Positions 1 to 13,844 of a DNA stretch of 19,954 bases are shown piece after piece. The translations under genes were made by a program, and so were the position numbers. A model generated the notes under the pieces. That model saw nothing but the letters and a program-made list of their open reading frames with translations, made no database searches and was not told the DNA's origin. Within the stretch, counting starts at the first letter, position 1, and each line of letters opens with the position of its first letter. Source of the DNA: Bacteroidota bacterium (GTDB lineage: Bacteria > Bacteroidota > Bacteroidia > UBA8524); contig DQHT01000025.1 in NCBI GenBank assembly GCA_003531115.1, positions 1 to 19,954 of the forward strand, given 5' to 3'.

Positions 1-16
1 AACGTTAGGGTGCATT

Positions 17-418
17 ATGAGACTTACTATTAAATTATCAATTCTAATCTTGTTACTTGTTGGATTTACCAATGAAAATGACAAACATGGGAAGAGATTT
101 GAAGGAGGTAGACTAATGTACTCTTCTATTAGAATTGACTTAAATGATGATTCCACATATTATTTGAGTGAATGGATGCATCCAACCTATTTTCGGAGGG
201 ATACGGGTACTTGGACTTATAGAAACAAGAAACTTATTCTAAATTCAATTTCGAAAACATGTTTGATTCCATGCAGAGATCCGAATGCTATTAGCTATCG
301 TTTCGAAAACCAAAAATGCGAATTGACTGACAGCACCTTGCAACTCCTACCAAAAAGGAGAAAGGATAAAGATTTTTACACGGAATACTTCAGATTATAT
401 CTTAGGGGAGAATATTAA
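17..418 (+). CDS. Cassette 1: small secreted protein of unknown function
   Basis: A 133-residue protein whose N-terminus (residues 1-18, two positive residues then a run of Leu/Ile) looks like a signal peptide, although no clear cleavage motif follows. The rest is polar and aromatic-rich with four cysteine-free stretches and one Cys-x3-Cys (CLIPC, around residues 82-86), plus alternating hydrophobic segments (STYYLSEW, TGTWTYRNKKLIL) suggesting a small beta-rich, perhaps lipocalin-like fold. I do not recognise the family. The start codon lies only 12 nt after the cassette boundary, so no promoter fits within the cassette. Transcription must come from upstream cassettes or an integron promoter outside the window. 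The AGGGTG of the recombination core is the only plausible ribosome-binding sequence. The stop codon falls just before the attC core at 420. Confidence 0.75.
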   Translation: MRLTIKLSILILLLVGFTNENDKHGKRFEGGRLMYSSIRIDLNDDSTYYLSEWMHPTYFRRDTGTWTYRNKKLILNSISKTCLIPCRDPNAISYRFENQKCELTDSTLQLLPKRRKDKDFYTEYFRLYLRGEY

Positions 419-419
419 C

Positions 420-551
420 GCACCCTAACACCATACTGGCGCTATGCTGCATTTCGTTTTCAGTCTGAAAATAAATGTTTAATTTGGGTCTTAAATTCCA
501 CCTCGCGTGATCGGTAAAATCCGCACAGCGCCAGTATGGAGAACGTTAGCC
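420..551 (+). other. attC recombination site of cassette 1
   Basis: The left core CCCTAAC (423-429) and right core GTTAGCC (545-551) flank a long imperfect palindrome. The outer stem pairs CCATACTGGCGCT (431-443) with AGCGCCAGTATGG (527-539), a 13-bp perfect match. As in the other sites, about five unpaired bases (AGAAC) separate the right stem from GTT. The ten bases 420-429 are the exact reverse complement of 4-13, the start of this cassette, so an excised circle would have a fully complementary core. The interior (GCTGCATTTCGTTTTCA..., ...CCGCACAG) is shared with the sites of cassettes 2 to 4. Confidence 0.9.
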
Positions 552-570
552 GAAATTTGCCGGCAATCGG

Positions 571-590
571 AGTAGCTTGTCGTAGCTACT
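571..590. repeat. Hairpin, 7-bp arms
   Basis: AGTAGCT (571-577) and AGCTACT (584-590) are perfect inverted repeats around a 6-nt loop, near the start of cassette 2. Confidence 0.7.
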
Positions 591-632
591 GAACGACGAA
601 TCAAAAAATCAATACATCTGAAGGGAAATCCA

Positions 633-699
633 CTTGCCAGGGTGCTTATGAATGACGCGCAAGCCTTTTTGTGACGGAGCGAATAAGCGCCCTGGCAAG
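633..699. repeat. Long inverted repeat, 17-bp arms
   Basis: The arm at 633-649 (starts CTTGCCAGGG) pairs with 683-699 (ends CCCTGGCAAG) over 17 positions. The only exception is one T643/G689 pair, which is a G-U wobble in plus-strand RNA. The loop is 33 nt. A stem this long is unexpected by chance in a gene-poor cassette. The loop contains ATGACGCGCAA, which recurs near the right edge of the window (19839-19849), suggesting a dispersed intergenic repeat. Confidence 0.75.
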
Positions 700-970
700 C
701 TACCCGAATTCCAGGACATTTAGGTTATTGAAAACGCCTTTTGACACCAGGCTGACAGAAGATTGACCGTTTTGTGACAATCGTTTCTATCAAGCGCGTG
801 CAGCATCAAAAGAATGCGGGGCCTTGCGCGACAAATCGCCTAGGAGATTTTTCAGAAGCGTGGGCCCGCGGGTGCGACAGCGGGGAAAAAGATCCAAGCG
901 ATGGCCTTCTTTTGATGCGGGTTGGCCCTGTGCGGTGGGAAGGCGCCTAGATAGAAACTGTCCTTTTTCG

Positions 971-998
971 GTTCCTTTTTGGACAAGCAAAAAGGAAC
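971..998. repeat. Hairpin, 11-bp perfect arms
   Basis: GTTCCTTTTTG (971-981) and CAAAAAGGAAC (988-998) form a perfect 11-bp stem with a 6-nt loop, about 35 bp before the attC core of cassette 2. It has no following T-tract on the plus strand, so a terminator role is uncertain. Confidence 0.75.
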
Positions 999-1032
999 AG
1001 TCGGCGAACTTGATCCGAGTCAAAAGCAAACA

Positions 1033-1163
1033 TCGGCTAACACCATGCTGCCCTATGCTCGTTTTCGTTTTCAGAGTGAAGCGAATTGGTTATCTTGAAC
1101 TTTAATTTCCAGCCTGGCGTGTTTGGTTAATTCCGCACTGTGTCAGCGCGGGAACCGTTGGTG
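1033..1163 (+). other. attC recombination site of cassette 2
   Basis: TCGGCTAAC (1033-1041) is the exact reverse complement of the cassette start (545-553). The right core is GTTGGTG (1157-1163). The outer stem is CCATGCTG (1043-1050) against CAGCGCGG (1145-1152), 6 of 8 pairs, weaker than in the neighbouring sites. The interior TTTTCGTTTTCA and the CCGCACTG block before the right stem are shared with the other sites in the array. Confidence 0.87.
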
Positions 1164-1208
1164 GCAATACTTTTTGGCAAGGAAAAGAAGAGAAGAACTT
1201 AATCACTA

Positions 1209-1240
1209 CTTGCAAAATGTTATCTAATTAGCTAACTTTG
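1209..1240 (+). promoter_or_regulatory. Promoter and 18-bp operator-like dyad of the HigBA cassette
   Basis: CTTG (1209-1212), a 20-bp spacer and TAACTTTG (1233-1240) match the Bacteroidota promoter consensus TTTG-N19-21-TAnnTTTG with one mismatch in the -33 element. Overlapping the spacer and -7 box is GTTATCTAATTAGCTAAC (1219-1236), a near-perfect palindrome (8 of 9 base pairs). It is well placed to be the site where the antitoxin represses its own operon. It lies 30-60 bp upstream of the higB start. Confidence 0.7.
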
Positions 1241-1269
1241 TGCTTGAGAACTAAGGACTAGAAAATCCA

Positions 1270-1626
1270 ATGAATAACTTTTTTCTCCGGGAGATATTCT
1301 ACTATGAAAATCACTATTTAGATTTTTTCGAAGGATTGCCCCCTGATGTAAAAAAGAAGTTCAACTGGACGCTCCAGTTAATTGAGACTACAGAAAGAGT
1401 GCCTGAGAAGTATTTTAAACACATGACAAACTCTACAGGCATTTACGAAGTGCGTGTTGAAGTTGGGTCCAACATATTCAGGGTCTTTAGTTTTTTTGAT
1501 AAAGGGAATCTGATTGTACTTGTGAATGGGTTCCAGAAGAAAACGCAGAAAACTCCGAAAAAGGAACTAGAACTTGCAGAAAAATTAAAAAAACAATACT
1601 TCGATGAGCAAAAAGGAATTAAATAA
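1270..1626 (+). CDS. higB: Cassette 3: HigB-type toxin, RelE superfamily (Gp49-like)
   Basis: A 118-residue protein with the hallmark block of the phage-derived Gp49-like/HigB family, around residues 57-105: GIYEVRVEVGSNIFRVFSFF, then KGNLIVLVNGFQKKTQKTPK and a C-terminal lysine-rich helix. Family members are ribosome-dependent mRNA interferases that stop translation when the antitoxin is lost. The toxin is encoded first and overlaps the XRE-type antitoxin by 23 bp, the usual higBA order. Both lie in one integron cassette (1158-2050) with its own promoter, in keeping with the known role of toxin-antitoxin cassettes in stabilising large arrays. Length and motifs are normal for the family. Confidence is high for the family; activity is inferred. 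Confidence 0.9.
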   Translation: MNNFFLREIFYYENHYLDFFEGLPPDVKKKFNWTLQLIETTERVPEKYFKHMTNSTGIYEVRVEVGSNIFRVFSFFDKGNLIVLVNGFQKKTQKTPKKELELAEKLKKQYFDEQKGIK

Positions 1627-1915
1627 AAAATTGACTTCATTCTCCTCCCATCTTGACGCACAGTATGGAAAACCTGGTAGTGTGACCAGAGAACTATATG
1701 AAGAAGAATTTGAAGCATTCAAGCTGGGTGCCATGATTCAGGAATTGCGGAAAGAACAAGGTTTGACCCAAGAACAACTTGCAGAAAAGTGTGGGACAAC
1801 CAAAACCTACATATCAAGAATTGAAAATAACGCCAGCGATATAAGACTCTCTACTTTAATGAGAATTATCCGCGAAGGATTAGGTGGACACCTGAAACTT
1901 AACGTTACACACTAA
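1604..1915 (+). CDS. higA: Cassette 3: HigA-type antitoxin, XRE helix-turn-helix
   Basis: A 103-residue protein. Residues 1-40 are a charged helical segment likely to contact the toxin. Residues 42-95 form an XRE/Cro-type helix-turn-helix domain (IQELRKEQGLTQEQLAEKCG, then TKTYISRIENN). The start codon at 1604 lies inside higB, giving a 23-bp overlap and probable translational coupling. Family members neutralise HigB and repress their own promoter. The 18-bp dyad at 1219-1236 is the obvious candidate operator. The stop codon is followed within ten bases by the attC core, so the pair fills the cassette tightly. Confidence 0.9.
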   Translation: MSKKELNKKLTSFSSHLDAQYGKPGSVTRELYEEEFEAFKLGAMIQELRKEQGLTQEQLAEKCGTTKTYISRIENNASDIRLSTLMRIIREGLGGHLKLNVTH

Positions 1916-1923
1916 AAAGTACA

Positions 1924-2056
1924 GCCACCAACACCGCGCAAGCACAATGCTCAACTTCGTTTTTAAACTCAAGTGAAATACTTACCTTGAACCTTCGTTT
2001 CCAAACTAACGCTCAGAGTTAAACTCCGCACTGGGCCTGCGCGGAGAACGTTGGCA
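1924..2056 (+). other. attC recombination site of cassette 3
   Basis: GCCACCAAC (1924-1932) is the exact reverse complement of the cassette start GTTGGTGGC (1157-1165). The right core is GTTGGCA (2050-2056). The outer stem pairs CCGCGCA (1934-1940) with TGCGCGG (2038-2044), followed by the unpaired AGAAC seen in the other sites. The interior is close to that of the cassette 4 site (shared AACTCCGCACTG and CGTTTCCAAACT). Confidence 0.9.
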
Positions 2057-2073
2057 ACAACCCATAAAGACAA

Positions 2074-3051
2074 ATGACACGTTGGACAACAATTATCTTT
2101 TTGACAGGGTTTCTTTCCGCGACAATAGCGCACGGACAGGCAATTACACCTGACAATATTTTATCCCCACAAAAAGGCGATCGGCAAGACACATTGTTGG
2201 AGTACTATCAAAAACATGACTTGATTTATGTCTTAGAAACAGGCGAAACATATTCTAATTTTCCATCGCTCTGCAATGGGTGGCGCTGTGATACAATTAA
2301 TGGAGGATACGGAAGTAAAATGGTTTATAGTAATCCGTATGACACCTGGAGTACTATGGTAAAATATCATTGTGGTTCCTCTTTCGCTTATTACTTTTAT
2401 AAAGAAGGAAAAAGATTTACAGGTAAAATTTCAGATTCCGTTTCGTATGGTGGAACAAAACAGATAGAATTTGAAGCAAATTGTATCAATGGAATGCTAC
2501 AGGGCAAGGGAAAATTTTATTTTACTCGTTCCGACAAAAATTTTCCCAAAGCAGGGGAAGTAAAATCGGAAGGAAGCTTTGAAGACGGAGAAATGGTAGG
2601 TGAATGGACTCATTATGAATATGACCATAATAACGACTGCTTTATTGACTATAAATTTTTCTACGTAAAAGACAAAGCATTTCCTAAAAAAGTATTTTCA
2701 TTTTACTCTAATGGTGAAATTAAATCGGAAACTGAATATGTGGATGATTATTTGATTTCCTACACAAAAGAATACAGGCTTGACCGAATGAATCCCAAAG
2801 TAAAGCACCTATATTTCGAGAAAACATTACTTGAAAACAATAAAAAAGACGAAACCTATAGAGGAAATGGTTCAATTTATTCATATAAGCAATACAATAT
2901 GGGACAAATTGAATTGACTGGACAGCCAAAATCAACAGACATATTTGGTGACAAACGGACAGGAACATGGTATTATTACAATGAGAAAGGGGAAATGACG
3001 AAAGAGGAAATTTATCAAGATGGAAAATTAATTGAAACTAAAAATCATTAA
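2074..3051 (+). CDS. Cassette 4: secreted MORN-type repeat protein
   Basis: A 325-residue protein with an N-terminal signal peptide (hydrophobic residues 6-19, then AHGQA, a plausible signal peptidase I site near residue 21). From about residue 130 it contains degenerate MORN-variant repeats of the kind seen in YwqK-like proteins: GMLQGKGKFYF, GSFEDGEMVGEWTHYEY, FYSNGEIKSETEY and, near the C-terminus, KRTGTWYYYNEKGEMTKEEI followed by YQDGKLIETK. Such repeats form beta-hairpin stacks. In Bacteroidota they are common in exported proteins of unknown role. The start lies 23 nt after the cassette boundary with no promoter between, so expression probably depends on read-through. Family is fairly sure; function is unknown. 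Confidence 0.82.
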   Translation: MTRWTTIIFLTGFLSATIAHGQAITPDNILSPQKGDRQDTLLEYYQKHDLIYVLETGETYSNFPSLCNGWRCDTINGGYGSKMVYSNPYDTWSTMVKYHCGSSFAYYFYKEGKRFTGKISDSVSYGGTKQIEFEANCINGMLQGKGKFYFTRSDKNFPKAGEVKSEGSFEDGEMVGEWTHYEYDHNNDCFIDYKFFYVKDKAFPKKVFSFYSNGEIKSETEYVDDYLISYTKEYRLDRMNPKVKHLYFEKTLLENNKKDETYRGNGSIYSYKQYNMGQIELTGQPKSTDIFGDKRTGTWYYYNEKGEMTKEEIYQDGKLIETKNH

Positions 3052-3151
3052 CTCAACACTCTTTACAAGCAGACAAATGACACCACAGACAACAACTCGC
3101 TCGACAGAAAAAATAATCGCTCGGCGGATAATTTCGCATAGACAAAAGGGC

Positions 3152-3285
3152 TGTTGCTGACACCGCGCAAGCCCAATGCTGCGTTTTCGTTTTCAAAGTG
3201 AAGTGAATTACTTAAATTACAATCCGTTTCCAAACTGGCGCTTAGAGTTAAACTCCGCACTGTGCCTGCGCGGAGAACGTTAGTG
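3152..3285 (+). other. attC recombination site of cassette 4
   Basis: TGTTGCTGAC (3152-3161) matches the reverse complement of this cassette's start (GTTGGCAACA, 2050-2059) at 8 of 10 positions. The changes fall inside the core (CCAAC to CTGAC), so the left core is degenerate. The right core is GTTAGTG (3279-3285). The outer stem CCGCGCA (3163-3169) pairs with TGCGCGG (3267-3273), then AGAAC. The interior closely resembles the cassette 3 site. The 100 bp between the preceding gene and this site show nothing else recognisable. Confidence 0.85.
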
Positions 3286-3384
3286 GGCATGCTTCGTGAG
3301 CATACGTTATTTGACAAGGCTGAAAAAAACGAAAATTTGATTGACCTTTTGAACTTCCCTTCCTTATAATTTGTAAACATACGA

Positions 3385-3897
3385 ATGATACTAATAGTAT
3401 TAGTGTTTCTAGTTTTTGTTAGCATAATTGGCGTGGCGCTTGTGGGACCCAAATGGTTTTCCAAAGGAATAACATTGGAAGACGAAGTTAAACTTGAGGC
3501 TCGGACTACCACCTTTATTGATTCTCTCAATTTTAAAATCGCTTATGCCGCAATAAATATATTCTTGATAGTTCCTGTTACAACTGGAGTTATCCTCAAT
3601 CGCTTTCATGGAGGCGTTGAGGTAAATAGACTGCCAAACTGGCTCGCGTCTTGGCTGAAATTAGGTTGGATCTTTCCGAGGGAATACGACAGCACATTTT
3701 CAAAGTTTGTATTGGCTATGTTTATTCTCACTGGCATTTTGAACCTATTTTTTACAATGAAAATTGCAAATAGAATAAAACCACAAACATTCAGATTACT
3801 TCTGAAGTCTATTGCCGCTACATTTAACATTATATTTATTTTGTATTGCATTTTGATATTGGCAATCTTGACTGCAGATTGGACGATGTATCTTTGA
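3385..3897 (+). CDS. Cassette 5: four-helix membrane protein, unknown function
   Basis: A 170-residue protein with about four hydrophobic segments: residues 1-21, 52-72 (AYAAINIFLIVPVTTGVIL), 108-125 (FVLAMFILTGILNLFFT) and 145-168. The loop between the second and third helices contains NRLPNWLASWLKLGWIFP, perhaps an interfacial helix. I do not recognise the family. The cassette leaves about 105 bp upstream of the start. A TATAATTTG at 3365-3373 resembles a -7 box but has one base too many between TA and TTTG, so its promoter is doubtful. Translation of the opposite strand (3063-3530) gives a longer ORF, rejected because it crosses the attC site. Confidence 0.72.
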   Translation: MILIVLVFLVFVSIIGVALVGPKWFSKGITLEDEVKLEARTTTFIDSLNFKIAYAAINIFLIVPVTTGVILNRFHGGVEVNRLPNWLASWLKLGWIFPREYDSTFSKFVLAMFILTGILNLFFTMKIANRIKPQTFRLLLKSIAATFNIIFILYCILILAILTADWTMYL

Positions 3898-3938
3898 GTT
3901 ATTCAAGTTCTCGCAAAACTTTAATCACGAGCACGCCA

Positions 3939-4069
3939 TACTAACAGCAAGCAAGCGCCACCGTCTTTCTTCACGGTACGTATCGGCTGAACGGTTGAAA
4001 TTTGTACATTCGTATTCGCAAGTATGTTGACCGGGAAAGCCGGCAGCCCCTGCTTGCAAAACCTTGCAG
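3939..4069 (+). other. Degenerate terminal attC of cassette 5
   Basis: The left core TACTAAC (3939-3945) sits in GCACGCCATACTAAC, which aligns with the reverse complement of this cassette's start (GCATGCCCACTAAC) with small differences. The outer stem pairs GCAAGCA (3947-3953) with TGCTTGC (4051-4057). The spacing then matches the other sites: one base between left core and stem, and five (AAAAC, compare AGAAC) before the right core. The right core reads CTTGCAG (4063-4069), so the G of the G|TT cleavage site has become C. Total length, 131 bp, matches the other sites. The interior is unrelated to theirs. Confidence 0.62.
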
Positions 4070-4149
4070 TGCATTTAACAACAGAAATAGCAATATTTGT
4101 TATTATTATTTGCATTATGAGAAATATCTAAAAGCTCGAGCGTTTGAAC

Positions 4150-5223
4150 ATGAAACATTTAAGGACCTTGAAGCTGTTAAAATTTTTGATAATATTCATT
4201 TTGCCAATGAATGTTTTAGCTCAGACCGACACTACCAAACACTTTAGTTGGAAATCATTTTTCGGCAAAAACTTAAACCCCGGAATTTCTATGGGTGTTG
4301 GGGGTGCAAGACCATATGGATTCATGCCTCAACCGACGATTAAATTAGGACGATTTGAATTTGAGATGAGTCCTATCTATCGTATTTCAGGTGCAGAATA
4401 TGTATTTTCAGCTCAGCTCGGGGTTGAAGTGAACAAAATGAAAGGTTATAAAGGCAAACCGGCGAGTATAGTTGCTTCATTTGGTGGTTTTACTAAAGGT
4501 TATAAAACATCATTCTTAGGGTTTAGAGAGAAAAACAATTTTGCATTTCTTGCAGGGATAAACCAACAAGTAACAAAGCGTTCACGCCTGTCTTTAAAAA
4601 TTGGAGCACTTTACACCTACAATTCCACCTTTGATGTGCATACTCTTCCTAATTATACTGAATACAATACCCATTGGTACCCTTATGGTGAACTTTCCTA
4701 TCGTTTGTACGCCATACCTTTTGGAGACAGGGATTTTTTTAGCGCTAAGAAGGCATACACGTTTCTACAACAACAGAATAAGGAAACAATATGCCGCTTT
4801 TTTTCAGCGTATTTCAACCCAAGAATTTCCTTTGGAGCAGGTGTAACACATCCAGCATTCTTTGGACCAACATTGGGGGTTAAAATATGGCGACTTGATG
4901 TCGGTCTTGGAGTAATAGGTTTAGGCGGAGAACCTTATTTTTCAATGAACGGAGACGTAGATATTCTTAAAATATTAAAGAAACACAAGCATCCATCCTG
5001 GATTACAGTCGGTGCCAGTGTCATGGGGTCTTACGACATTATATTCAGTTTTCATGCTGGTCTAAAGAAGTATTATAATCACGGTTCATTGTCTTTTAAA
5101 ATTGGCATTGGGAGTATAAGCCATTATGATGATTCACCATACCCTAGTGAACCTAAACCCAATACACGTGTTCCAACTCTCGACATTTCATACAACCTTC
5201 ATCTTTTTAAGTTCAGAAAATAA
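4150..5223 (+). CDS. Probable outer-membrane beta-barrel protein, unknown function
   Basis: A protein of 357 residues when started at the ATG at 4150; an in-frame TTG two codons upstream is less likely. The signal peptide covers residues 1-23 (LLKFLIIFILPMNVLAQ, cut before or after the Gln). The mature part alternates hydrophobic and polar residues with many Gly, Tyr and Phe (GISMGVGGARPYGF, RFEFEMSPIYRISG, RISFGAGVTHPAFFG, LDVGLGVIGLGGEPYFSMNG) and ends with an aromatic-containing segment, as in outer-membrane barrels. I cannot name the family. It lies directly after the degenerate attC but has no matching downstream core (reverse complement of CTTGCAGTGC), so it appears to be chromosomal rather than a sixth cassette. 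Confidence 0.75.
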   Translation: MKHLRTLKLLKFLIIFILPMNVLAQTDTTKHFSWKSFFGKNLNPGISMGVGGARPYGFMPQPTIKLGRFEFEMSPIYRISGAEYVFSAQLGVEVNKMKGYKGKPASIVASFGGFTKGYKTSFLGFREKNNFAFLAGINQQVTKRSRLSLKIGALYTYNSTFDVHTLPNYTEYNTHWYPYGELSYRLYAIPFGDRDFFSAKKAYTFLQQQNKETICRFFSAYFNPRISFGAGVTHPAFFGPTLGVKIWRLDVGLGVIGLGGEPYFSMNGDVDILKILKKHKHPSWITVGASVMGSYDIIFSFHAGLKKYYNHGSLSFKIGIGSISHYDDSPYPSEPKPNTRVPTLDISYNLHLFKFRK

Positions 5224-5284
5224 ATGTAGTGATGTGCTATCACAGCCAAACAGAGTAAGCCATCGATCCGCTAGCAGATATATT

Positions 5285-5629
5285 ATGAGACACACCACAA
5301 TTTCAATGCTAATTTTTCTGTTTTGTACCATTTCGGTTATGGGACAGACTTCTTCACTTAAATTAAGTGTATATTTTGACACGGATAAATCCAATGGAAC
5401 ATGAAAATACACCCGCTTAAAACAAGATATGGTGCATTTTAAAAAACTAAACATCAATATCGACAGCCTGATTGGAACGGTGGATTATGCCTTTTTGGAC
5501 GGCACCTTTTATGATGCCGAAGAAATAAACCACCGCGATATCCGGAACATACCTCACCCCTTTATCATTGAGTATGGAGTAGGTTCAGGCTGCAGGGCGC
5601 AGGCGACAGGCTGGGACTTAGGTGCTTAG
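5285..5629 (+). pseudogene. OmpA-like protein pseudogene with in-frame stop
   Basis: A signal peptide (MRHTTISMLIFLFCTISVMG, then QTSS) leads into LKLSVYFDTDKSN, the typical first strand of an OmpA-like peptidoglycan-binding domain (usually VYFDTDKS). An in-frame TGA at 5402-5404 interrupts it. The same frame then continues without a shift through KYTRLKQDMVHFKKLNINID and SLIGTVDYAFLDGTFYDAEE, which fits the continuation of that domain (helix, then I-x-G-x-x-D). The reading frame runs out in a GC-rich, CAGG-repeated stretch (5586-5615) and stops at 5629, well short of a complete OmpA domain. Seen: one nonsense codon plus a truncated C-terminus. Inferred: a decayed gene left beside the integron. 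Confidence 0.72.
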
Positions 5630-5685
5630 CCATTGAATTTGGGAGTTAATGTGTATATTTATGGCTGTTTGAAACATACTAAACG

Positions 5686-6504
5686 ATGAACCTAAAAAAA
5701 ATAATCATACTCCTTCTGGTCATCCAGGCATTGATCGGAACTTTTTTTGAAGTGACCCAGTTCTTTTTGCCGTCGTGGATCAGGCATATGTACCTCCCTG
5801 ACATTTTTGAGTTTGCCCGCACCTTAACCTGGTTATTTGGGATTTTAAGCTATGTCCTCACTTTTGTAGGGGTGATCCAAATCATACAGAATAAAAACGT
5901 AGAACTCTTTAGCGCTTTCAAGTTTCCCATCTTTCTCTTATTTGCCGAAAATATCTTTTGGTTTATTACCACATCATTAAGCACCGAATACTCCTTTTTT
6001 ATTCCCGGAGCGAATGCCCCGTGGCACTTCTATCTATACAAAACCCTCAGCCTGGCGCTTCTGATCCTTATAAGCATCCATTACCTGAATAAAAACAAGG
6101 AAGAAGACAATGCAGAAACGATACTTGCGGGCAAAGGAGCCCGATTCTTCAATTGGATAATCGACCTGAGCATTATTCTTTCATTCAGCTTCGGCCATAT
6201 GAAGACACTCTCACAAGGTTATATCTTTGAAGATATTGCCTTCTTAAATTCAAGTGCAAGCTGGTTCATTTTTATAAATATGTTTTGGTATTACCTCATT
6301 CTCGAACTGTTCTTTCACCAGACAATCGGGAAACTGCATAACAATAGCTATGTCCACTTTGAAGGCAGTAAGTTTAAAGCAATATTGCTAAGAACCTTGT
6401 GCCGGTTTATTCCCTTCGAAGCCTTTTCGTTTTTTGGAAAAGAAGGGTGGCATGATTCAATTTCAAAAACTAAAGTGACTGTTCCAACGAGGGACAAGGA
6501 CTGA
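5686..6504 (+). CDS. RDD family membrane protein
   Basis: A 272-residue integral membrane protein. Residues 5-27, about 42-66, 78-97 and 114-136 are hydrophobic helices. The segment from residue 150 (AGKGARFFNWIIDLSIIL) to about 262 fits an RDD domain: the Arg and Asp of RFFNWIID, a central helical pair, and the C-terminal signature RFIPFEAFSFFGKEGWHDSI. RDD proteins are membrane proteins of mostly unknown function; some have been linked to ion exchange. The extra N-terminal helices make this a longer-than-minimal member. Only 56 bp separate it from the pseudogene. A TATATTTA at 5654-5661 is a possible weak -7 box. Confidence 0.8.
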   Translation: MNLKKIIILLLVIQALIGTFFEVTQFFLPSWIRHMYLPDIFEFARTLTWLFGILSYVLTFVGVIQIIQNKNVELFSAFKFPIFLLFAENIFWFITTSLSTEYSFFIPGANAPWHFYLYKTLSLALLILISIHYLNKNKEEDNAETILAGKGARFFNWIIDLSIILSFSFGHMKTLSQGYIFEDIAFLNSSASWFIFINMFWYYLILELFFHQTIGKLHNNSYVHFEGSKFKAILLRTLCRFIPFEAFSFFGKEGWHDSISKTKVTVPTRDKD

Positions 6505-7096: not shown

Positions 7097-7348
7097 ATGG
7101 AAACAAAACTAACCCTACGTCTGGATGACTTGGTCATCGAAAGAGCAAAAAAATATGCCCGGAGTCACAAGATCAGTCTATCAAAAATGATCGAAACCTA
7201 TCTTGACAGCCTCACCAAACAACAAGATTCGGAGAATCCAGGTACGATAACTCCCCTGGTAGAAAGTCTGAGTGGAGTAATGGAACCGCCTTCTGAATAT
7301 GATTACAAAAAGGGGTATGGCAATTATTTATCAGAAAAGTACAAATGA
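7097..7348 (+). CDS. DUF6364-like ribbon-helix-helix antitoxin
   Basis: An 83-residue protein starting METKLTLRLDDLVIERAKKY, an arrangement of beta strand then helix (KYARSHKISLSKMIETYLDSL) typical of ribbon-helix-helix DNA-binding proteins and close to the DUF6364 antitoxins found beside PIN toxins in Bacteroidota. The C-terminal half (residues 45-83, Gly/Pro-rich, ending EYDYKKGYGNYLSEKYK) is probably the toxin-wrapping tail. The gene overlaps the toxin gene by four bases (ATGA at 7345-7348) and follows a consensus promoter. By analogy with VapB it should neutralise the downstream toxin and repress its own operon. Confidence 0.85.
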   Translation: METKLTLRLDDLVIERAKKYARSHKISLSKMIETYLDSLTKQQDSENPGTITPLVESLSGVMEPPSEYDYKKGYGNYLSEKYK

Positions 7349-7758
7349 AAAGGATCTTTATTGATACAAATATTGTGATCGACCTATTATCACGACGAGA
7401 ACCCTTTTATAAAGAGGCCTCAGATCTCTTCTCACTGGCAGATAAAAAAAAATTCAGATTGAGCATTTCTGCTTTGACGGTGGCAAATACCCATTATTTG
7501 CTCTCTCGTCAAATGGATTCAGTCAAAGCAAAAACAATTCTAAGAAATTTGAAACTTATCGTGCATGTTGTGTCGCTTGATGACAAAATCGTTGACTTAG
7601 CCCTTAATGACACTTCTTTTACAGACTTTGAGGATAGTATTCAATACTTAACTGCGTTAGAAAGCGGTCAGGACATCATCATCACGCGAAATCTAAGCGA
7701 CTTTAAAAAGTCAAAATTACCCGTATTGACGGCAAAACAGTTTTTAGAAACCCTTTAA
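7345..7758 (+). CDS. PIN-domain ribonuclease toxin, VapC type
   Basis: A 137-residue PIN-domain protein. The N-terminal strand IFIDTNIVIDLLSRREPFY supplies the first conserved Asp (D7) and the Asn/Asp of the DTNIVID motif. A second acidic group lies in TDFEDSIQY (residues 93-101), and ITRNLSDF (113-120) carries the last conserved Asp, all in the expected order for a metal-dependent ribonuclease. Length is typical. Translation is coupled to the antitoxin by a 4-bp overlap. Together they form an accessory toxin-antitoxin operon outside the integron array. The RNA target cannot be predicted. Confidence 0.88.
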   Translation: MKRIFIDTNIVIDLLSRREPFYKEASDLFSLADKKKFRLSISALTVANTHYLLSRQMDSVKAKTILRNLKLIVHVVSLDDKIVDLALNDTSFTDFEDSIQYLTALESGQDIIITRNLSDFKKSKLPVLTAKQFLETL

Positions 7759-8448: not shown

Positions 8449-9363
8449 TCACTCCCTGTTGAGCGTACCTAGCTTTTTGATCCTGAAAATCTGAATAACC
8501 AGATAGATGATCACACCCCAAACGGAAAATGCGATCCCATAAGCCATAACCAATAACCAGTAAGGTGCCCTGAAGCGTGTGGACCATAGAGAACGTTGTT
8601 CAAAGAACGAATCGTCGCCAATTACAGGCACGCCCCAGCGAGCTGTTTTTTCGATGATAAGATTTCCAAACAGATCACTTTCTTCGACTCTTGCACGCAA
8701 AATGATATTTCCCTGTTCATCGCCGGGCATATTGGCCTTATTCAGCTCCACGCTAACCATTCCTTCTTCATCGGTGGTATACGTTTCATCTTCCCCTGCT
8801 GAAAGGATCCCTCCCAGACGGCGTATGCCTACTTTCATTTCTACTTCTTCGGCAGGAACCCACACACTATCCTCCAGCATCATTACCATGACACTTATAC
8901 TTCTTACCCCATCTTCAGAAAGGGTGTCGATCTGTATCCTGGCTTTGGTTATTTCGATCTCGGTGGTGATCTCCTCTTCCTTGTCTTTGGTAACGGCAAT
9001 AAACAGGTGCATGGGCATTTCATCCCATAAGGCTTTAAGGGAAGGGGGAATAAAACATTTCGCTTTACCTTTTTCATCGGTAGTGACCTTTGCGATCAGG
9101 TTTTCTTCAATTTGCTCATCCATATACACCTCACAAACCTGATTGGGCAGCGGCACTGCAATTCTGCCCGTTTTCGACAGGCTTTCCAGTATGAGATACT
9201 GAAGCTGGTTGTTTTCATTAAAATACCTCAGCCTGAGTACAGTTTCCGTTACCGGAGCCTCTTCTTTTTCTTCTTCTTCCTGAGCTGAAACCTGATTCAC
9301 AGCCAGCATCAACAGAAGGGGTAACAGGAGGAAAAAACAATTAATGCGCTTCATCGTTTTCAT
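8449..9363 (-). CDS. Signal-anchored periplasmic protein with C-terminal membrane helix
   Basis: A 304-residue protein. A signal peptide (residues 1-27, ending VSAQ) is followed by an acidic linker (EEEEKEE) and about 220 residues rich in beta strands, with two segments resembling Ig-like or carboxypeptidase-regulatory repeats (KVTTDEKGKAKCFIPPSLKA; ETYTTDEEGMVSVELNKANM). A single hydrophobic helix near residues 271-294 (YWLLVMAYGIAFSVWGVIIY) ends in a short basic cytoplasmic tail. The predicted topology is a large periplasmic domain anchored at the C-terminus. The start overlaps the NrfD-like gene by 23 bp, so the two products are probably made together and may form one complex. No named family is recognised. 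Confidence 0.75.
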   Translation of the reverse strand: MKTMKRINCFFLLLPLLLMLAVNQVSAQEEEEKEEAPVTETVLRLRYFNENNQLQYLILESLSKTGRIAVPLPNQVCEVYMDEQIEENLIAKVTTDEKGKAKCFIPPSLKALWDEMPMHLFIAVTKDKEEEITTEIEITKARIQIDTLSEDGVRSISVMVMMLEDSVWVPAEEVEMKVGIRRLGGILSAGEDETYTTDEEGMVSVELNKANMPGDEQGNIILRARVEESDLFGNLIIEKTARWGVPVIGDDSFFEQRSLWSTRFRAPYWLLVMAYGIAFSVWGVIIYLVIQIFRIKKLGTLNRE

Positions 9364-10657
9364 GGTGTTCGGTTATCGTTTCCTGAATAGGGATAATTGG
9401 ATAGATCCTTGCAAATAATGTAATGATAAGCAGTACTCCTGCCATTGAGCCCATGGCAATAGCCCATTCTTCCCAACTTGGAAAATAATGATGGTAGGCC
9501 TCAGGAACTTCCTGCATGGGCAGGATAGGATGCAATAAGGTTGGTGTAACGATCAGGTACCTTTTAAACCAGGCCCCGATCACGATCATCACCCCCGCAA
9601 TAAACATGGGTAGGGGTTTCCGGCCTTTTTTGAAAAGAAGGATAATGATGGGTAAGATCATGCCTACGCTGATCGCAAACCAGAACATGAGCGAAAACTC
9701 ACCGGTAAACAATCCCATAAGGTGGGCTTCCTCCGCTTTTTTCATTTTAAAGGCAGGTACCAGATACTCATTGATATTAAAATACAGGTAGAGCATACAA
9801 AGCATCACCACGATCCTCCCCATTTTTTCAAAATGCATTTCGGTGATGTATTTTTCCAGCTTATAAAAACGCCGGAATACGAACATGGCTACCACCACTG
9901 CCCCTGCTCCTACAAGGAAGGCCCCGGAAATAAAATAAGCTCCGAAATTGGTACTGTCCCAACCCGGCCTGTACGTCGTGGCAAATAGCCAGGAAGTTAC
10001 CGTGTGGATACAAAAGGCCACAGGGATGATGGTGATACAAAGGGCAGTTATTGACCTTTCGCTAATTTTAAACTGGTCTTTTGTGCCTCTCCAGAATGAG
10101 CCCTGAAAGCGGTAGACTTTGTTTAACAATTTGCCTGAATTTTCTTTGAATTTGATGAGTATTTTGAGGTCGGGCAACAGCGGCACATACAATAATAACA
10201 CACTGATAACCAGGTAGGTTCCGATAACGATCACATCCCATAAAATAGGCGATTGGATCCTGCCGTGTATAAAGACATTGAGCAGGCGTTCCGGACGACC
10301 CATATCGATCACAATGATCAGGGAGGCAAAGATGATGGCCGATACTGCGATGATCTCAGCGATACGGGTTATGGGTGTTGCCCACTTGACATTCGCCAAT
10401 CGGAATATGGCCGTGATCAGCGATCCGACCAGACTTATGGCCACAAAAAACACAAAATTGGAAATGTAAATACCCCACGAAACATAGTCGCGCATATTGG
10501 TAACCACGAGTCCATACCTTAATTGACGGTAATAAGCGTAGAGCCCGACGAGCCCTATTATTACCAGAATTCCAGTCCAGATCATACCCCGTTTGCCAAA
10601 TTTTTGTGGCAGGAGATCCCTGGTAATTTGTTCTTCGGATACTGTTGAATTTTTCAC
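9341..10657 (-). CDS. NrfD/PsrC/DsrP-family membrane quinone-interacting subunit
   Basis: A 438-residue polytopic protein with about ten predicted helices (roughly residues 25-43, 60-86, 99-117, 138-160, 202-222, 238-262, 280-298, 321-342, 349-363 and 397-417). Family signatures include YVSWGIYISNFVFFVAIS (58-75) and the conserved DMGRPERLLN after the third helix. NrfD-type proteins exchange electrons between the quinone pool and a periplasmic Fe-S partner; the Fe-S subunit gene is immediately upstream (16 bp). The pair resembles the DsrO/DsrP and HmeA/HmeB modules. No catalytic molybdoenzyme is encoded here, so the donor or acceptor is unknown. Residues beyond 420 (His/Glu-rich tail) lie on the outside of the fold. 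Confidence 0.87.
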   Translation of the reverse strand: MKNSTVSEEQITRDLLPQKFGKRGMIWTGILVIIGLVGLYAYYRQLRYGLVVTNMRDYVSWGIYISNFVFFVAISLVGSLITAIFRLANVKWATPITRIAEIIAVSAIIFASLIIVIDMGRPERLLNVFIHGRIQSPILWDVIVIGTYLVISVLLLYVPLLPDLKILIKFKENSGKLLNKVYRFQGSFWRGTKDQFKISERSITALCITIIPVAFCIHTVTSWLFATTYRPGWDSTNFGAYFISGAFLVGAGAVVVAMFVFRRFYKLEKYITEMHFEKMGRIVVMLCMLYLYFNINEYLVPAFKMKKAEEAHLMGLFTGEFSLMFWFAISVGMILPIIILLFKKGRKPLPMFIAGVMIVIGAWFKRYLIVTPTLLHPILPMQEVPEAYHHYFPSWEEWAIAMGSMAGVLLIITLFARIYPIIPIQETITEHHENDEAH

Positions 10658-10673
10658 AGCGGTTTATTTTAGC

Positions 10674-11609
10674 TTAGTGGTGATGTAAATCCTGAGGATC
10701 CTGATTCTCTATACCAGATTCATAAGGGAAGTTCCTGCTAACAGGAGGCAGGTAATAAACACTCGGTTTTGTTCCCAGATCTTCCATAAGCCGGTAACCA
10801 GCCTTGTCTCTGATAAGGTCACTGAATCTGTATGTTTCAGCACCATTGGTTACCGAGTCTTCATTGATGTCGCCAAACATAAATACCCCGTTCGGGCAGG
10901 CAGAAACACAATGGGGCAATTCGCCCTTGCGGACCATATCCGGGCAAAAATCACATTTGCCAACTGTGCCCTTTTTCTGAGGAACACTGGTTTCGCAGGA
11001 ATAATGCTGTTGCTTAACCTCCTCAGGTATGTTGGTGGGTTCTTCCCAGTTAAATACCCGTGTGGAATACGGACATGCCGCCATACAAAAACGGCATCCG
11101 ATACACCGGTCGCTATCGATCGCTACGATCCCATCCTGCCTTTTAAAGGTGGCATCAACAGGACAAACCTTCACACAGGGAGGTTCATCGCAATGCATAC
11201 AGGTGGTAGGCTGCCAATAAGGAGCAGTAAGATCAGACTCCTGCATGGAATGGATCTTAACCCAACTTTGTCCTTCTTCTACAAAGTGAGCATGGTTACA
11301 GGATTCCTGGCATTTTTTCAGGTTCTTGCAACGTGCCAGATCTATAACCATAACAAACTTTTTGCCTTCTATACCCATCCGTTCCTGCTCATTGGTGAGC
11401 GGAGGCATTGCAGGTACGGGTTTTAAGTAAGCTTTATCGATCTCGATCACTTCGCCGGTTACGGAAAGCAGTTTCACTTTTTCACCGGTAAGGGCAACTT
11501 CTGCCTCCGGGAGAAAGGGATTTTCCGCTTCTCCACAGCCGGTCAGTGCCGCCGTGGCCAAAATTCCTGATAGAAGAAAGTCTCTTCTGGATGTGTTCTT
11601 ATTTTCCAT
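10674..11609 (-). CDS. Tat-exported Fe-S lipoprotein, NrfC/PsrB/DsrO-like
   Basis: A 311-residue periplasmic electron-transfer protein. TSRRDFLLSG (residues 6-15) is a twin-arginine signal and ALTGC (21-25) a lipobox, so it is predicted to be folded in the cytoplasm, exported and lipid-anchored. Cysteine groups suit four Fe-S clusters: C94/C100/C104; C137-x2-C140-x4-C145-x3-C149-P; C169-x2-C172-x2-C175-x3-C179-P; and C219-x2-C222 with C234-x3-C238-P. The first group has only three closely spaced cysteines; C205 or one from another group may complete it. It should pass electrons to or from the adjacent NrfD protein. Residues 46-62 share a short module with the small upstream protein. The C-terminus ends in three histidines. 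Confidence 0.88.
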   Translation of the reverse strand: MENKNTSRRDFLLSGILATAALTGCGEAENPFLPEAEVALTGEKVKLLSVTGEVIEIDKAYLKPVPAMPPLTNEQERMGIEGKKFVMVIDLARCKNLKKCQESCNHAHFVEEGQSWVKIHSMQESDLTAPYWQPTTCMHCDEPPCVKVCPVDATFKRQDGIVAIDSDRCIGCRFCMAACPYSTRVFNWEEPTNIPEEVKQQHYSCETSVPQKKGTVGKCDFCPDMVRKGELPHCVSACPNGVFMFGDINEDSVTNGAETYRFSDLIRDKAGYRLMEDLGTKPSVYYLPPVSRNFPYESGIENQDPQDLHHH

Positions 11610-11615
11610 ATCTCC

Positions 11616-11873
11616 TTATTTCTTTACCCAGGTTAATAATTCATCGTGGCTGATCTTCGTACCTGTTGGAGTCTGAGCAAGCATATTTTTATTGATCTCA
11701 ACCAGCTTGCCGTCTTCTGTCAGCATTTTTATCGTTTCCTCTTCCTTTGCAGCCGGTTCCTCTTTTTTGAGGGCGCGAAATGTGAGAAAGGGAAATACGG
11801 ATAACGACGCCAATGCTGCTGCACCCCAAACCAGTATTTTTTTTCTTGAGACTGTGTTCTTATTCTCTTCCAT
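11616..11873 (-). CDS. Small membrane-anchored protein of the Fe-S/NrfD operon
   Basis: An 85-residue protein, first gene of its operon and six bases upstream of the Fe-S gene. Residues 8-30 (VSRKKILVWGAAALASLSVF) resemble a Tat-like signal but with Arg-Lys in place of twin Arg, so it may instead be a simple N-terminal anchor. Residues 48-66 (IKMLTEDGKLVEINKNML) align with residues 45-62 of the Fe-S protein (VKLLSVTGEVIEIDKAYL), suggesting a duplicated interaction module. It has no cysteine and so cannot bind clusters itself. It may be a scaffold or docking subunit. Not a family I recognise. Confidence 0.72.
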   Translation of the reverse strand: MEENKNTVSRKKILVWGAAALASLSVFPFLTFRALKKEEPAAKEEETIKMLTEDGKLVEINKNMLAQTPTGTKISHDELLTWVKK

Positions 11874-11892
11874 AAAGAATCTTTTTGATATG

Positions 11893-11960
11893 TAAAATTA
11901 AGGAAGACCAAAATGCCTAATGGTGATATAGTTCATCTGGAAATATGATTTTTATCATGT
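11893..11960 (-). promoter_or_regulatory. Crp/Fnr-type dyad and promoter of the Fe-S/NrfD operon
   Basis: ATGA-N6-TCAT (11945-11958) has the half-site spacing of Crp/Fnr-family operators (TGTGA-N6-TCACA; TTGAT-N4-ATCAA). On the minus strand TAATTTTA (11900 to 11893) is a one-mismatch -7 box. The dyad centre (11951.5) is 55 bp from the box centre (11896.5), which places it near -61.5, the class I activator position. The start codon is about 20 bp further downstream. Confidence 0.55.
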
Positions 11961-11983
11961 GCCCTGGCTCGGCATAATGCATG

Positions 11984-12019
11984 AAAAAAGCCGGCATCCA
12001 TTGCTGAATACCGGCTTTT
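11984..12019 (-). terminator. Intrinsic terminator after the cytochrome c gene
   Basis: Read on the minus strand, AAAAGCCGGTATTC pairs with GGATGCCGGCTTTT (14 positions, two of them G-U) around a 6-nt loop, and the run continues into six T. The hairpin is more stable in minus-strand RNA than plus, so it serves the YceI-to-cytochrome operon and separates it from the next unit. Confidence 0.85.
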
Positions 12020-12037
12020 CTATAAAATTTGCGTTGA

Positions 12038-12448
12038 CTACTTTTTCAGTGTCCTCATATAATTCACCAAACTCCATCTTTCGTCTTCATCCGGAATTTT
12101 CTTTTTGAAGCTTGGCATATCATCACGTCCTTCTGAAGTTTTGTAATACAAAGCTCCATCCGTTTGTTTTTGAAAATCAGCTTTTGAAAAATCACCCGGA
12201 TCTGTTTTTAACTGAGCGGCTTTGCTACCATCACCCAAACCTTTTGTACCATGGCAGGATTTGCAGTGTTTACTCCACAAAGTTTTGCCTGTTGCAAGTG
12301 ATTCAGGATTGGAAGCCACAGGATTTTTCATTTTTACATAATTGTCCGGGGCATTCCATGGCTTTTTATCCTGGCTCAGTTTCGTGGTGAAACTTAACCC
12401 GATAAAGGCTACTGTCGTTGCGATTAACGCAAAATTTAAACTTTTCAT
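12038..12448 (-). CDS. Monohaem class I cytochrome c
   Basis: A 136-residue exported protein. A signal sequence (residues 1-21) is followed by a compact class I cytochrome c domain: haem-binding CKSCH (residues 62-66), GTKGLGDG after it, and the likely distal axial Met in GRDDMPSFKKKIPDED, ending with the usual WSLVNYMRTL helix. It should carry electrons in the periplasm. It is the last gene of the YceI-started operon, 39 bp after the DUF5777 gene, and is followed directly by a strong terminator. Its position between the two units makes it a plausible electron shuttle between the Fe-S/NrfD module and an outer-membrane partner, which is an inference from context. Confidence 0.9.
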   Translation of the reverse strand: MKSLNFALIATTVAFIGLSFTTKLSQDKKPWNAPDNYVKMKNPVASNPESLATGKTLWSKHCKSCHGTKGLGDGSKAAQLKTDPGDFSKADFQKQTDGALYYKTSEGRDDMPSFKKKIPDEDERWSLVNYMRTLKK

Positions 12449-12487
12449 GATGCTATTCTTTAGATACTTACAAGTTAAACAGATTAC

Positions 12488-13441
12488 TTAATAATTCCAT
12501 AATCTGGTAATGTTGAAACCGATCAAAAACTGGCCACCTTCAACTTCTTTTCCTGTAACGGCATCTGTATATTTAAACGGATTATTTGAATTATACAGGT
12601 TGTTCCGTTGTGGGCTCAAAGCAGAGTAGTTGCTTACAAAGAACTGGAAACTGTGGCTGCTGGTGTTCAGTTCAATTCCGATTCCTAAATTCGGGTTCGG
12701 GTTGTACTGGGAATGCTGGGTTAGAGGTTGGTCATAATTAAAGATGACTGCTCCTGCTTCTGAAAATTTATACCTTCCGGCAAAGGACAAAGCCAAATGA
12801 TCAAACTCCATGGATTTGTACACCTCTGTTCCGTTGATATAATAACCTCCCACAGCATTTTGATGGGAGAGGCTTAATGCTGCCTGAAGGGAAAACCTTT
12901 CGGTGATCTTTCTGGCAACCATCACCTGATGGAAGTACGAAAATCGTTCCACATCGTAATTTAATTCACTTCCATCGTAAATAGTTGGTGTTTTACGGGA
13001 ATCGTAGCCCATGTTTGCATAGTAGGTAACGCTGAATGGCATGCCACCCTTGGCCTGGTGCAAAAAGGCATATTTTGCGCTGGCGTCCCAAAGCATATTG
13101 GCTTTGGTAATTCCAATACCCACATTCAGGTTTTTAATTGGAACATAACTTACACCCAGGCGAATATTTGATGGGGCAAAAAATCCCCAAAAATCCTCAT
13201 ACCCGTTTTTTACCGTTCCAAATCGGTGAAGAATATCAAACTCCAGGGTACCTTTTACCGGAACCATAACCGTTTGATTGTCGATGATCCATACACTTTC
13301 AAAGGTGTTTTTCACAGGTTTTGGCTTCGAAGGAGCAGGTTGCTCCTGAGCATAGCTCGCAGAAAGGAGCAGCGTGGTGCCGATCGCAATGGCTAAACCT
13401 GCCCTTAGTGCTCTTATAGACTTATTTACAAAGCTTTTCAT
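12488..13441 (-). CDS. DUF5777 family outer-membrane beta-barrel
   Basis: 317 residues from the ATG at 13441. The longer frame to 13495 overlaps the upstream gene and is rejected; AAAGAT precedes 13441 and the signal peptide begins there. The signal sequence (residues 6-31) ends SYAQ. The next 60 residues carry the DUF5777 signature: NTFESVWIIDNQTVMVPVKG, LEFDILHRFGTV, then IRLGVSYVPIKNLNVGIGIT. Alternating strands follow to a C-terminal GFNITRLWNY, with the aromatic end usual for barrels. DUF5777 proteins are Bacteroidota beta-barrels of unknown function. Here the gene lies between two cytochrome-type genes, so a role in electron or small-molecule passage across the outer membrane is possible but unproven. 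Confidence 0.85.
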   Translation of the reverse strand: MKSFVNKSIRALRAGLAIAIGTTLLLSASYAQEQPAPSKPKPVKNTFESVWIIDNQTVMVPVKGTLEFDILHRFGTVKNGYEDFWGFFAPSNIRLGVSYVPIKNLNVGIGITKANMLWDASAKYAFLHQAKGGMPFSVTYYANMGYDSRKTPTIYDGSELNYDVERFSYFHQVMVARKITERFSLQAALSLSHQNAVGGYYINGTEVYKSMEFDHLALSFAGRYKFSEAGAVIFNYDQPLTQHSQYNPNPNLGIGIELNTSSHSFQFFVSNYSALSPQRNNLYNSNNPFKYTDAVTGKEVEGGQFLIGFNITRLWNY

Positions 13442-13460
13442 ATCTTTATTTTTTAGACAA

Positions 13461-13844
13461 TTAGTTGTTAGGAGCGCCATTTCTGATCCAGTCATAAACT
13501 TTCTGCCTGTCGGCTGCTGAAGGCATGTATTCCCTCATTTCCCCATTGATCATAATATAGAGGGTACTTTGTTTTGGGATTTCAGTGTTCACGTAGCCTC
13601 CATTTACTATTTGCTGGTAAGAAACATCGAGGGTCAGATAGGGTTTATGTGCGCCGCTCACGTGGCAACCTACATCGGTGCAGCTTGCATCGAAGAGTGG
13701 AGCAAGGTCGGTACTAAAACTCACAGCCTGTGGCGGACCATCCGGGTCTACCGCTATATCCGGCATAATCACATCCTTATAACACCCGCTAAGGGTAATA
13801 AGAACAAGGATGGATAAACTAATAACTAGGGTTACTGGTTTCAT
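13461..13844 (-). CDS. Cytochrome-c-like lipoprotein with CX4CH motif
   Basis: A 127-residue lipoprotein: residues 1-20 hydrophobic, lipobox LSGC (18-21). The mature part resembles the small cytochrome-like domains common in Bacteroidota: VSFSTDLAPLFDASCTDVGC, then H, gives C-x4-C-H instead of C-x2-C-H; next LTLDVSYQQIVNGGYVNT; then EYMPSAADRQKVYDWIRNGA, in which the Met could be the distal haem ligand. CX4CH sites can bind haem in some multihaem cytochromes, so haem attachment here is likely but not certain. It lies 24 bp after the YceI gene and 19 bp before the DUF5777 start, so it is probably an outer-membrane-anchored partner of that barrel. Confidence 0.78.
   Translation of the reverse strand: MKPVTLVISLSILVLITLSGCYKDVIMPDIAVDPDGPPQAVSFSTDLAPLFDASCTDVGCHVSGAHKPYLTLDVSYQQIVNGGYVNTEIPKQSTLYIMINGEMREYMPSAADRQKVYDWIRNGAPNN

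Follow-up and report, generated by a model that had tools for sequence, protein, structure and literature searches.

An apparently undescribed type of chromosomal integron, with an integrase lacking the I2 domain, proposed for a Bacteroidota bacterium

We describe a gene-cassette array at the left end of a 19,954-nucleotide stretch of DNA from a Bacteroidota bacterium (bases 1-19,954 of contig C47, DQHT01000025.1, of a genome in 161 contigs; hereafter the window), together with the tyrosine recombinase that would serve it. Judged from its sequence, the system is an integron by anatomy and very likely one by function. Our reading, which we hold at a probability of about 0.8, is a chromosomal integron of a non-canonical type, whose integrase would work without the I2 helix. 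Site geometry, covariation, a near-invariant wobble pair, complementarity of unit starts and ends, linkage to the integrase, one cassette duplication and invariant catalytic columns all point to it. The system is outside the IntI class by the defining features tested (the additional domain, the TIGR02249 cut-off and the extrahelical bases), and an I2-less integron variant is apparently undescribed so far.

The right part of the array fills the first 4.07 kb of the window (4-4072) and consists of five cassettes, each closed by an attC-like site; repeats some 135 bp long stand at 420-554, 1032-1166, 1923-2059 and 3152-3288. Within each unit the ten-base core at the start is complementary to the core at the end, at 10/10 positions for the unit starting at 4899 on contig C114 (see below) and, in the window, at 10/10, 9/10, 9/10, 8/10 and 7/10 for the units starting at 4, 545, 1157, 2050 and 3279. 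The true pairing of starts and ends over these six units scores 53/60, the top of all 720 pairings (mean 37.0, runner-up 51). This confirms the first-pass annotation, made from the letters alone, which had recognized a cassette array at 5..4063 by such complementarity. The array is real, but it begins on another contig, its last boundary is weaker, and the unit at 545-1041 has no convincing open reading frame (ORF).

Contig C114 (L016, 5752 bp) ends in the window's first 25 bases. From left to right it carries a tyrosine recombinase gene at 3678-4820 (380 aa), a core at 4899, an ORF at 4913-5602 and an attC-like site (S1) at 5604-5740. The core, GTTAGCAAGC, is an attI-like GTT core whose exact complement is the left core of S1. 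Across the join the order would be integrase, attI-like core, cassette 1 and then the window, the array being placed behind the 3′ end of the integrase gene and in the gene's direction; in relatives (e.g. G050 and G033) integrase and sites lie on a single contig. A search to the left for intI and attI, as advised earlier, does find an adjacent integrase and an attI-like core, but the extra domain of IntI is absent. The features of the window's part of the array are listed here, with z comparing the bottom-strand fold with shuffles, and R1 a covariance model of the sites trained on 44 sites from other genomes plus S1 and S2.

4..429, plus strand: cassette 2; start core GTTAGGGTGC at 4-13, end core at 420-429, 10/10 complementarity; 25-nt overlap with C114
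17-418, plus strand: cassette 2 ORF, 133 aa; no family in a Pfam scan
420..554, plus strand: attC-like site S2; 17-bp bulge-free stem, spacer 1/5 nt; z -5.07; R1 74.9 bits (S2 in training set)
545..1041, plus strand: cassette 3; 9/10 core match; internal inverted repeats; no convincing ORF in the ORF list
1032..1166, plus strand: attC-like site S3; degenerate stem with a one-base gap; R1 E 2.2e-6 (untrained); z -0.60, weak
1157..1932, plus strand: cassette 4; 9/10 core match; toxin-antitoxin-like pair
1270-1626, plus strand: cassette 4 Gp49 family ORF; PF05973, E 6.8e-24
1604-1915, plus strand: cassette 4 HTH ORF; PF01381, E 6.6e-15
1923..2059, plus strand: attC-like site S4; R1 E 1.8e-11 (untrained); z -2.73
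2050..3161, plus strand: cassette 5; 8/10 core match; ORF 2074-3051, 325 aa, with a secretion-signal-like start (by eye)
3152..3288, plus strand: attC-like site S5; R1 E 5.8e-10 (untrained); z -1.09, weak
3279..3945, plus strand: cassette 6; 7/10 core match, the array's weakest; ORF 3385-3897, 170 aa, no family in a Pfam scan
3936..4072, plus strand: attC-like site S6, the last and degenerate; right core CTTGC instead of GTTAG; R1 20.9 bits, E 0.007

Right of S6 no additional site was found within the window, and an Rfam scan of the window and L016 gave no match.

The integrase scores 192 bits against TIGR02249 (integrase_gron), below the cut-off of 265, and 234.2 bits against the XerA-like model NF040815, above the cut-off of 220. 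Between the motifs that flank the position of the additional domain lie 40-46 residues in 54/54 rows of its type (L043 and L060 being one locus, of G012), 83 in 12/12 IntIs, and 45 and 48 in E. coli XerC/D. Residues 180-250 of IntI4 have no aligned counterpart in the integrase, which has 28 residues there; within this stretch fall the residues that contact extrahelical bases in VchIntIA, namely K209, Y210, W219, P232, H240 and H241. On these sequence grounds the recombinase is without the IntI additional (I2) domain, and this absence and the sub-cut-off IntI scores rule out a canonical IntI; nor does the genome hold any match above the IntI cut-off. By family model and by structure, the catalytic part comes closest to XerA and other Xer recombinases (5hxy ranked first by fold; also 4a8e), and R236, K261, H325, R328, H351 and Y360, which we take to be the catalytic residues, are invariant in 18/18 rows. 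The likeness to XerA/Xer covers these matches and an inter-motif length near that of E. coli XerC/D. The type differs from Xer in the extra N-terminal domain of most members read, in being distinct from the genome's other Xer recombinases (on C40, at 342 bits and above the XerD cut-off, and on C131), and in its linkage to cassette arrays.

The N-terminal domain appears HARP/XPB-like; the HARP profile (PF07443) does not match this integrase. The protein differs from SMARCAL1 (HARP domain) and archaeal XPB (N-terminal domain) in that no helicase is present and the domain is fused to a tyrosine recombinase. The integrases of L071, L074, L076, L085 and L090 have longer N-termini with apparently two HARP-like repeats (by eye). 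In trees the integrase type is split from XerC/D at 100/100 support, and with XerC/D as the outside group IntI is nested in a HARP-type grade (99/99 and 96/91 support). An ancestry of IntI from HARP-type stock is not claimed, because the approximately unbiased (AU) test does not reject a single clade of all HARP-type rows (p 0.17).

Folding energy is lower for the bottom strand at all six sites of the genome's array (S1-S6), with z values against shuffles of -4.1, -5.1, -0.6, -2.7, -1.1 and -2.0. Along the bottom strand, a core and a 5-nt spacer precede the 20-bp stem, the two arms of which enclose about 72 nt, and a 1-nt spacer separates the second arm from the other core. A geometry scan over five loci picked for having sites gave the 1/5 spacer offset at 22 sites in 77 kb, recurring with the same offset at neighbouring settings, while other offsets occurred 0-1 times, except for 7 at 0/4 (same offset). 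In a set of 46 sites, 19/20 stem pairs change on both sides and pair 14 is G.T in 43, being unpaired in the rest. Of the sites in a 70-site set, 64 have a wobble at pair 14 on the bottom strand and 2 a Watson-Crick pair, and 32 show an A.C mismatch at pair 5, again on the bottom strand. Pair 14 would be an A.C mismatch on the top strand, and is therefore able to mark the strand.

A perfect 7-mer geometry scan proved too noisy for comparing site types, and a chain search took its place. So that stem pairing would weigh less in the selection, sites were chained by core complementarity and retained if the gapped stem alignment scored at least 16; raw links numbered 366 over both strands, many by chance. 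At 15 loci of the window's site type the 4-nt offset holds in 51/58 rows and a gap occurs somewhere in 19/58, with the first 14 stem columns gap-free in 44/51 rows (by eye). At 12 canonical-IntI loci of the phylum, gaps occur in 74/78 rows (a count that takes every site on both strands), chiefly at two or three regular positions, the pattern expected of extrahelical bases. Window-type sites are mostly without the extrahelical bases seen in the IntI arrays of the phylum. The first-pass annotation would have given up the array had its sites failed to fold with such bases; they are mostly absent, but the array stands nonetheless, as an integron of a different kind and not a false positive.

With IntI integrons (VchIntIA/IntI4, IntI1) the system shares an adjacent tyrosine recombinase, an attI or attI-like core, tandem cassettes, attC cores YAAC/GTTR, a folded bottom strand and toxin-antitoxin cassettes. 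The window's system differs in having neither the additional domain nor regular bulges, in its 1/5 spacer, and in an array that lies 3′ of the integrase gene and runs the same way.

On the window and L016, R1 finds six sites at E up to 0.01, of which S1 and S2 belonged to the training set; on the whole genome it finds 13 at E up to 1, on C42, C47, C114, C71, C25, C147, C57 and C58. The covariance-model scan, of a kind suggested earlier, recovers the three untrained window sites S3-S5 (E 2.2e-6 to 1.8e-11) and the degenerate S6. A statement that R1 is specific was withdrawn, since some sites of canonical-IntI loci are matched too.

A close match to the integrase (E up to 1e-60) occurs in 20/60 genomes, this one included. 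Among the 20 loci of the other 19 genomes, a contig end lies no more than 2.4 kb downstream of the gene in 15/20 and, upstream, within that distance in 0/20; contigs of G058, G019 and G211 stop precisely at the end of a GTTA core behind the gene, as would be expected of assembly forks. In 14/20 loci a TATA stretch stands shortly 5′ of the GTT (by eye). We examined 44 downstream regions, many of them short (20 + 20 from two sets, the genome's own, and three picked for having sites). Twenty contain sites, 70 in total, of which 36 have exactly 121 nt from AAC to GTT; 61/70 units match their unit start at 9 or 10 of 10, under a chaining that picked the best earlier start and so favours high values. 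In 19/20 site-bearing loci a GTT core 5-126 nt past the integrase match (17 at 69-126) matches the end core of the first site at 9-10 of 10. Cassettes have a median length of 912 bp; in 63/70 the longest ORF runs in the sense of the array.

The strongest sign that cassettes move as units is found in a relative, G050, where one 1071-nt cassette is present twice, 1071/1071 identical, with breaks at the predicted GTT boundaries and different neighbours. This duplication and the unit-specific core complementarity support the circulation as cassettes proposed at first pass. In named genomes 40 of 80 loci were scanned, many with little downstream sequence, and five have a downstream site (L060, L061, L062, L076 and L088); the first core of L088 matches at 6/10 only, and L060 coincides with L043 of G012. 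A more distant subclade (L185-L189) has few or no 1/5 sites, and our claim is therefore limited to the nearer subclades. Three of its loci (L185, L186 and L187) share another motif, CCAATTGTTR, shortly past the gene, perhaps an attI of a second type that goes with different sites. Integrases of the window's or a related type also occur at L078, L073 and L079, on contigs labelled archaeal or Firmicutes.

An unlikely alternative, though the one that survives best, is a Xer/dif-like double-strand system in which the recombinase acts on duplex cores and the long hairpins serve another purpose, e.g. termination. It would suit an integrase that is XerA-like by sequence and by fold and that lacks I2, which the literature regards as the source of single-strand recombination. 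But duplex recombination has no evident use for 9-10-base end complementarity that differs between cassettes, nor for 19/20 covarying stem pairs, and the near-invariant wobble is a standard pair on the bottom strand only.

The distribution of integrases and sites was surveyed in 395 Bacteroidota genomes (homologue, E up to 1e-80; canonical IntI, over the cut-off; site, R1 E up to 0.001). A homologue is found in 112, a canonical IntI in 105 and a site in 187, some of these site matches being canonical attC sites. Among the homologue genomes 45 align through the N-terminal part and 23 more have a frame of at least 340 aa, which puts the N-extended form in 68/395. Sites are present in 98/112 homologue genomes, 16/77 IntI-only genomes and 73/206 with neither (odds ratio 15, kinship uncorrected), and in 60/68 genomes with the N-extended integrase against 127/327 remaining genomes (odds ratio 12, likewise uncorrected). 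The attC-like site goes with the I2-less integrase, and not more with the HARP-bearing form. Homologue and canonical IntI occur together in 28 genomes, 11 of which have the N-extended form; such genomes would be useful for a side-by-side test. One of the matching rows in the IntI search (G093) is marked as the window's own class.

These counts bear on a second alternative, which we think slightly less probable again: an orphan array (CALIN) with a canonical IntI mobilizing its cassettes in trans, in which case the neighbouring Xer-like recombinase would be a bystander. Canonical IntIs are common in the phylum, sites occur in genomes with neither integrase, and G063 has an apparent R1-type array near a canonical IntI. 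Set against this are the lack of any match above the IntI cut-off in the genome itself, the enrichment of sites with the I2-less integrase and not with IntI, a site geometry unlike that of the phylum's IntI arrays, and the matching GTT core directly behind the I2-less gene in 19/20 site-bearing loci. That the units are ordinary, immobile genes among dispersed hairpin repeats (repetitive extragenic palindrome (REP) or terminator-like), as site matches in 187/395 genomes and single matches on several of the genome's contigs might suggest, is highly improbable and was rejected on the exact one-cassette duplication with new neighbours and the unit-specific complementarity, best of 720 pairings; arrays also start at a matching core behind the integrase.

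Several observations weigh against a non-canonical, I2-less integron. The join of C114 to the window is based solely on the 25-nt overlap. S3 and S5 fold no better than shuffles and are also unlisted by a strict stem scan, and the best fold of S3 differs from the attC hairpin; the bottom-strand folding anticipated at first pass holds for energy at 6/6 sites but not, at these two, against shuffles. The sites behind the 70- and 46-site stem statistics were partly picked by stem complementarity, which inflates percent paired, and a one-base gap near stem position 11-12 appears in 7/51 rows (by eye). Of the 12 canonical-IntI loci, 3 contain R1 matches at E up to 0.001, 6 in all, and 4 of these make up the apparent R1-type array about 4 kb from the G063 IntI (L208 2834-5511); G063 also has a short integrase homologue elsewhere, and the L208 sites reflect either a mixed locus or IntI use of R1-type sites. 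At L174 the attI rule is broken (6/10). By fold, the N-terminal domain has weak to middling matches (for 4o66 in Foldseek, second rank at E 0.3, not significant), and L051, L069 and L072, counted among the HARP-type rows, are without the domain in the frame read. In 44/112 homologue genomes there are short matches only (frame below 340 aa), some of them fragments, and the statement that all 112 have a HARP-type integrase was accordingly withdrawn; sites are as common with these short-only homologues (38/44) as with the N-extended form (60/68). Lastly, 73/206 genomes with neither integrase have a site match.

Under our preferred reading of a non-canonical integron, a XerA-like tyrosine recombinase with a HARP/XPB-like N-terminus and no I2 would be encoded directly left of the array and point into it, with an attI-like GTT core behind its gene and cassettes that each consist of one or few ORFs and an attC-like site. 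The bottom strand of the site would form the hairpin, and the recombinase would cut at G|TT of the R box and join the cassette to attI. A folded single strand can serve as a substrate for Xer enzymes, as with CTX phage. Our guess is that recognition and strand choice, the work of I2 and extrahelical bases in IntI systems, could fall here to the HARP-like domain together with the asymmetric spacer (1/5) and the T.G wobble, which is strand-specific. We regard as doubtful a more specific version, in which the HARP/XPB-type domain would read the bulge-free site marked by the G.T wobble, allowing single-strand capture without I2, and IntI may stem from within this group, having traded HARP for I2. 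It loses ground in that sites are just as frequent with homologues that lack the domain, which weakens the idea that the HARP-like domain is needed.

The first-pass annotation was right that a generic search could miss such an array: two surveys picked IntIs by their additional domain (PMC9668308, PMC2426708). In the IntegronFinder 2.0 report, one complete integron is given for Bacteroidetes proper, in Salinibacter ruber, with others in Chlorobi and Ignavibacteriae (PMC9024848), and a further source lists Bacteroidota among the phyla with integrons (PMC8618304). The insert is described as not fully conserved in an integron-like subgroup yet essential for integron function (PMC8138268), and a few such proteins may therefore have been seen without arrays. 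Another paper holds that I2 gave integrases single-strand recombination (PMC7790495). No report of an I2-less integrase in a Bacteroidota integron emerged from our literature search, which covered neither preprints nor the majority of subscription journals. If the system is recombination-active, the view of the I2 helix as the source of single-strand recombination needs widening, a large pool of mobile genes opens up in a major phylum, and two kinds of integrase become available side by side for testing where IntI came from.

The genome has a second array, at C71 1-5000 (L234), with core matches of 10/10, 9/10 and, for the third, 5/10; no integrase is among the ORFs listed there, and one cassette has a likely HigB/HigA-type toxin-antitoxin (by eye). 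A 62-nt direct repeat, 85% identical, flanks the integron on both sides (window 5519-5578 and L016 3242-3302); its copies are perhaps pieces of one split or duplicated gene. Outside the array, window 7097-7758 holds a DUF6364 and PIN_3 pair (Pfam scan), likely a toxin-antitoxin, and 8449-13844, on the minus strand, a block with iron-sulfur, NrfD-like and cytochrome c ORFs that, judged from the ORF letters alone, resembles a cluster for alternative complex III.

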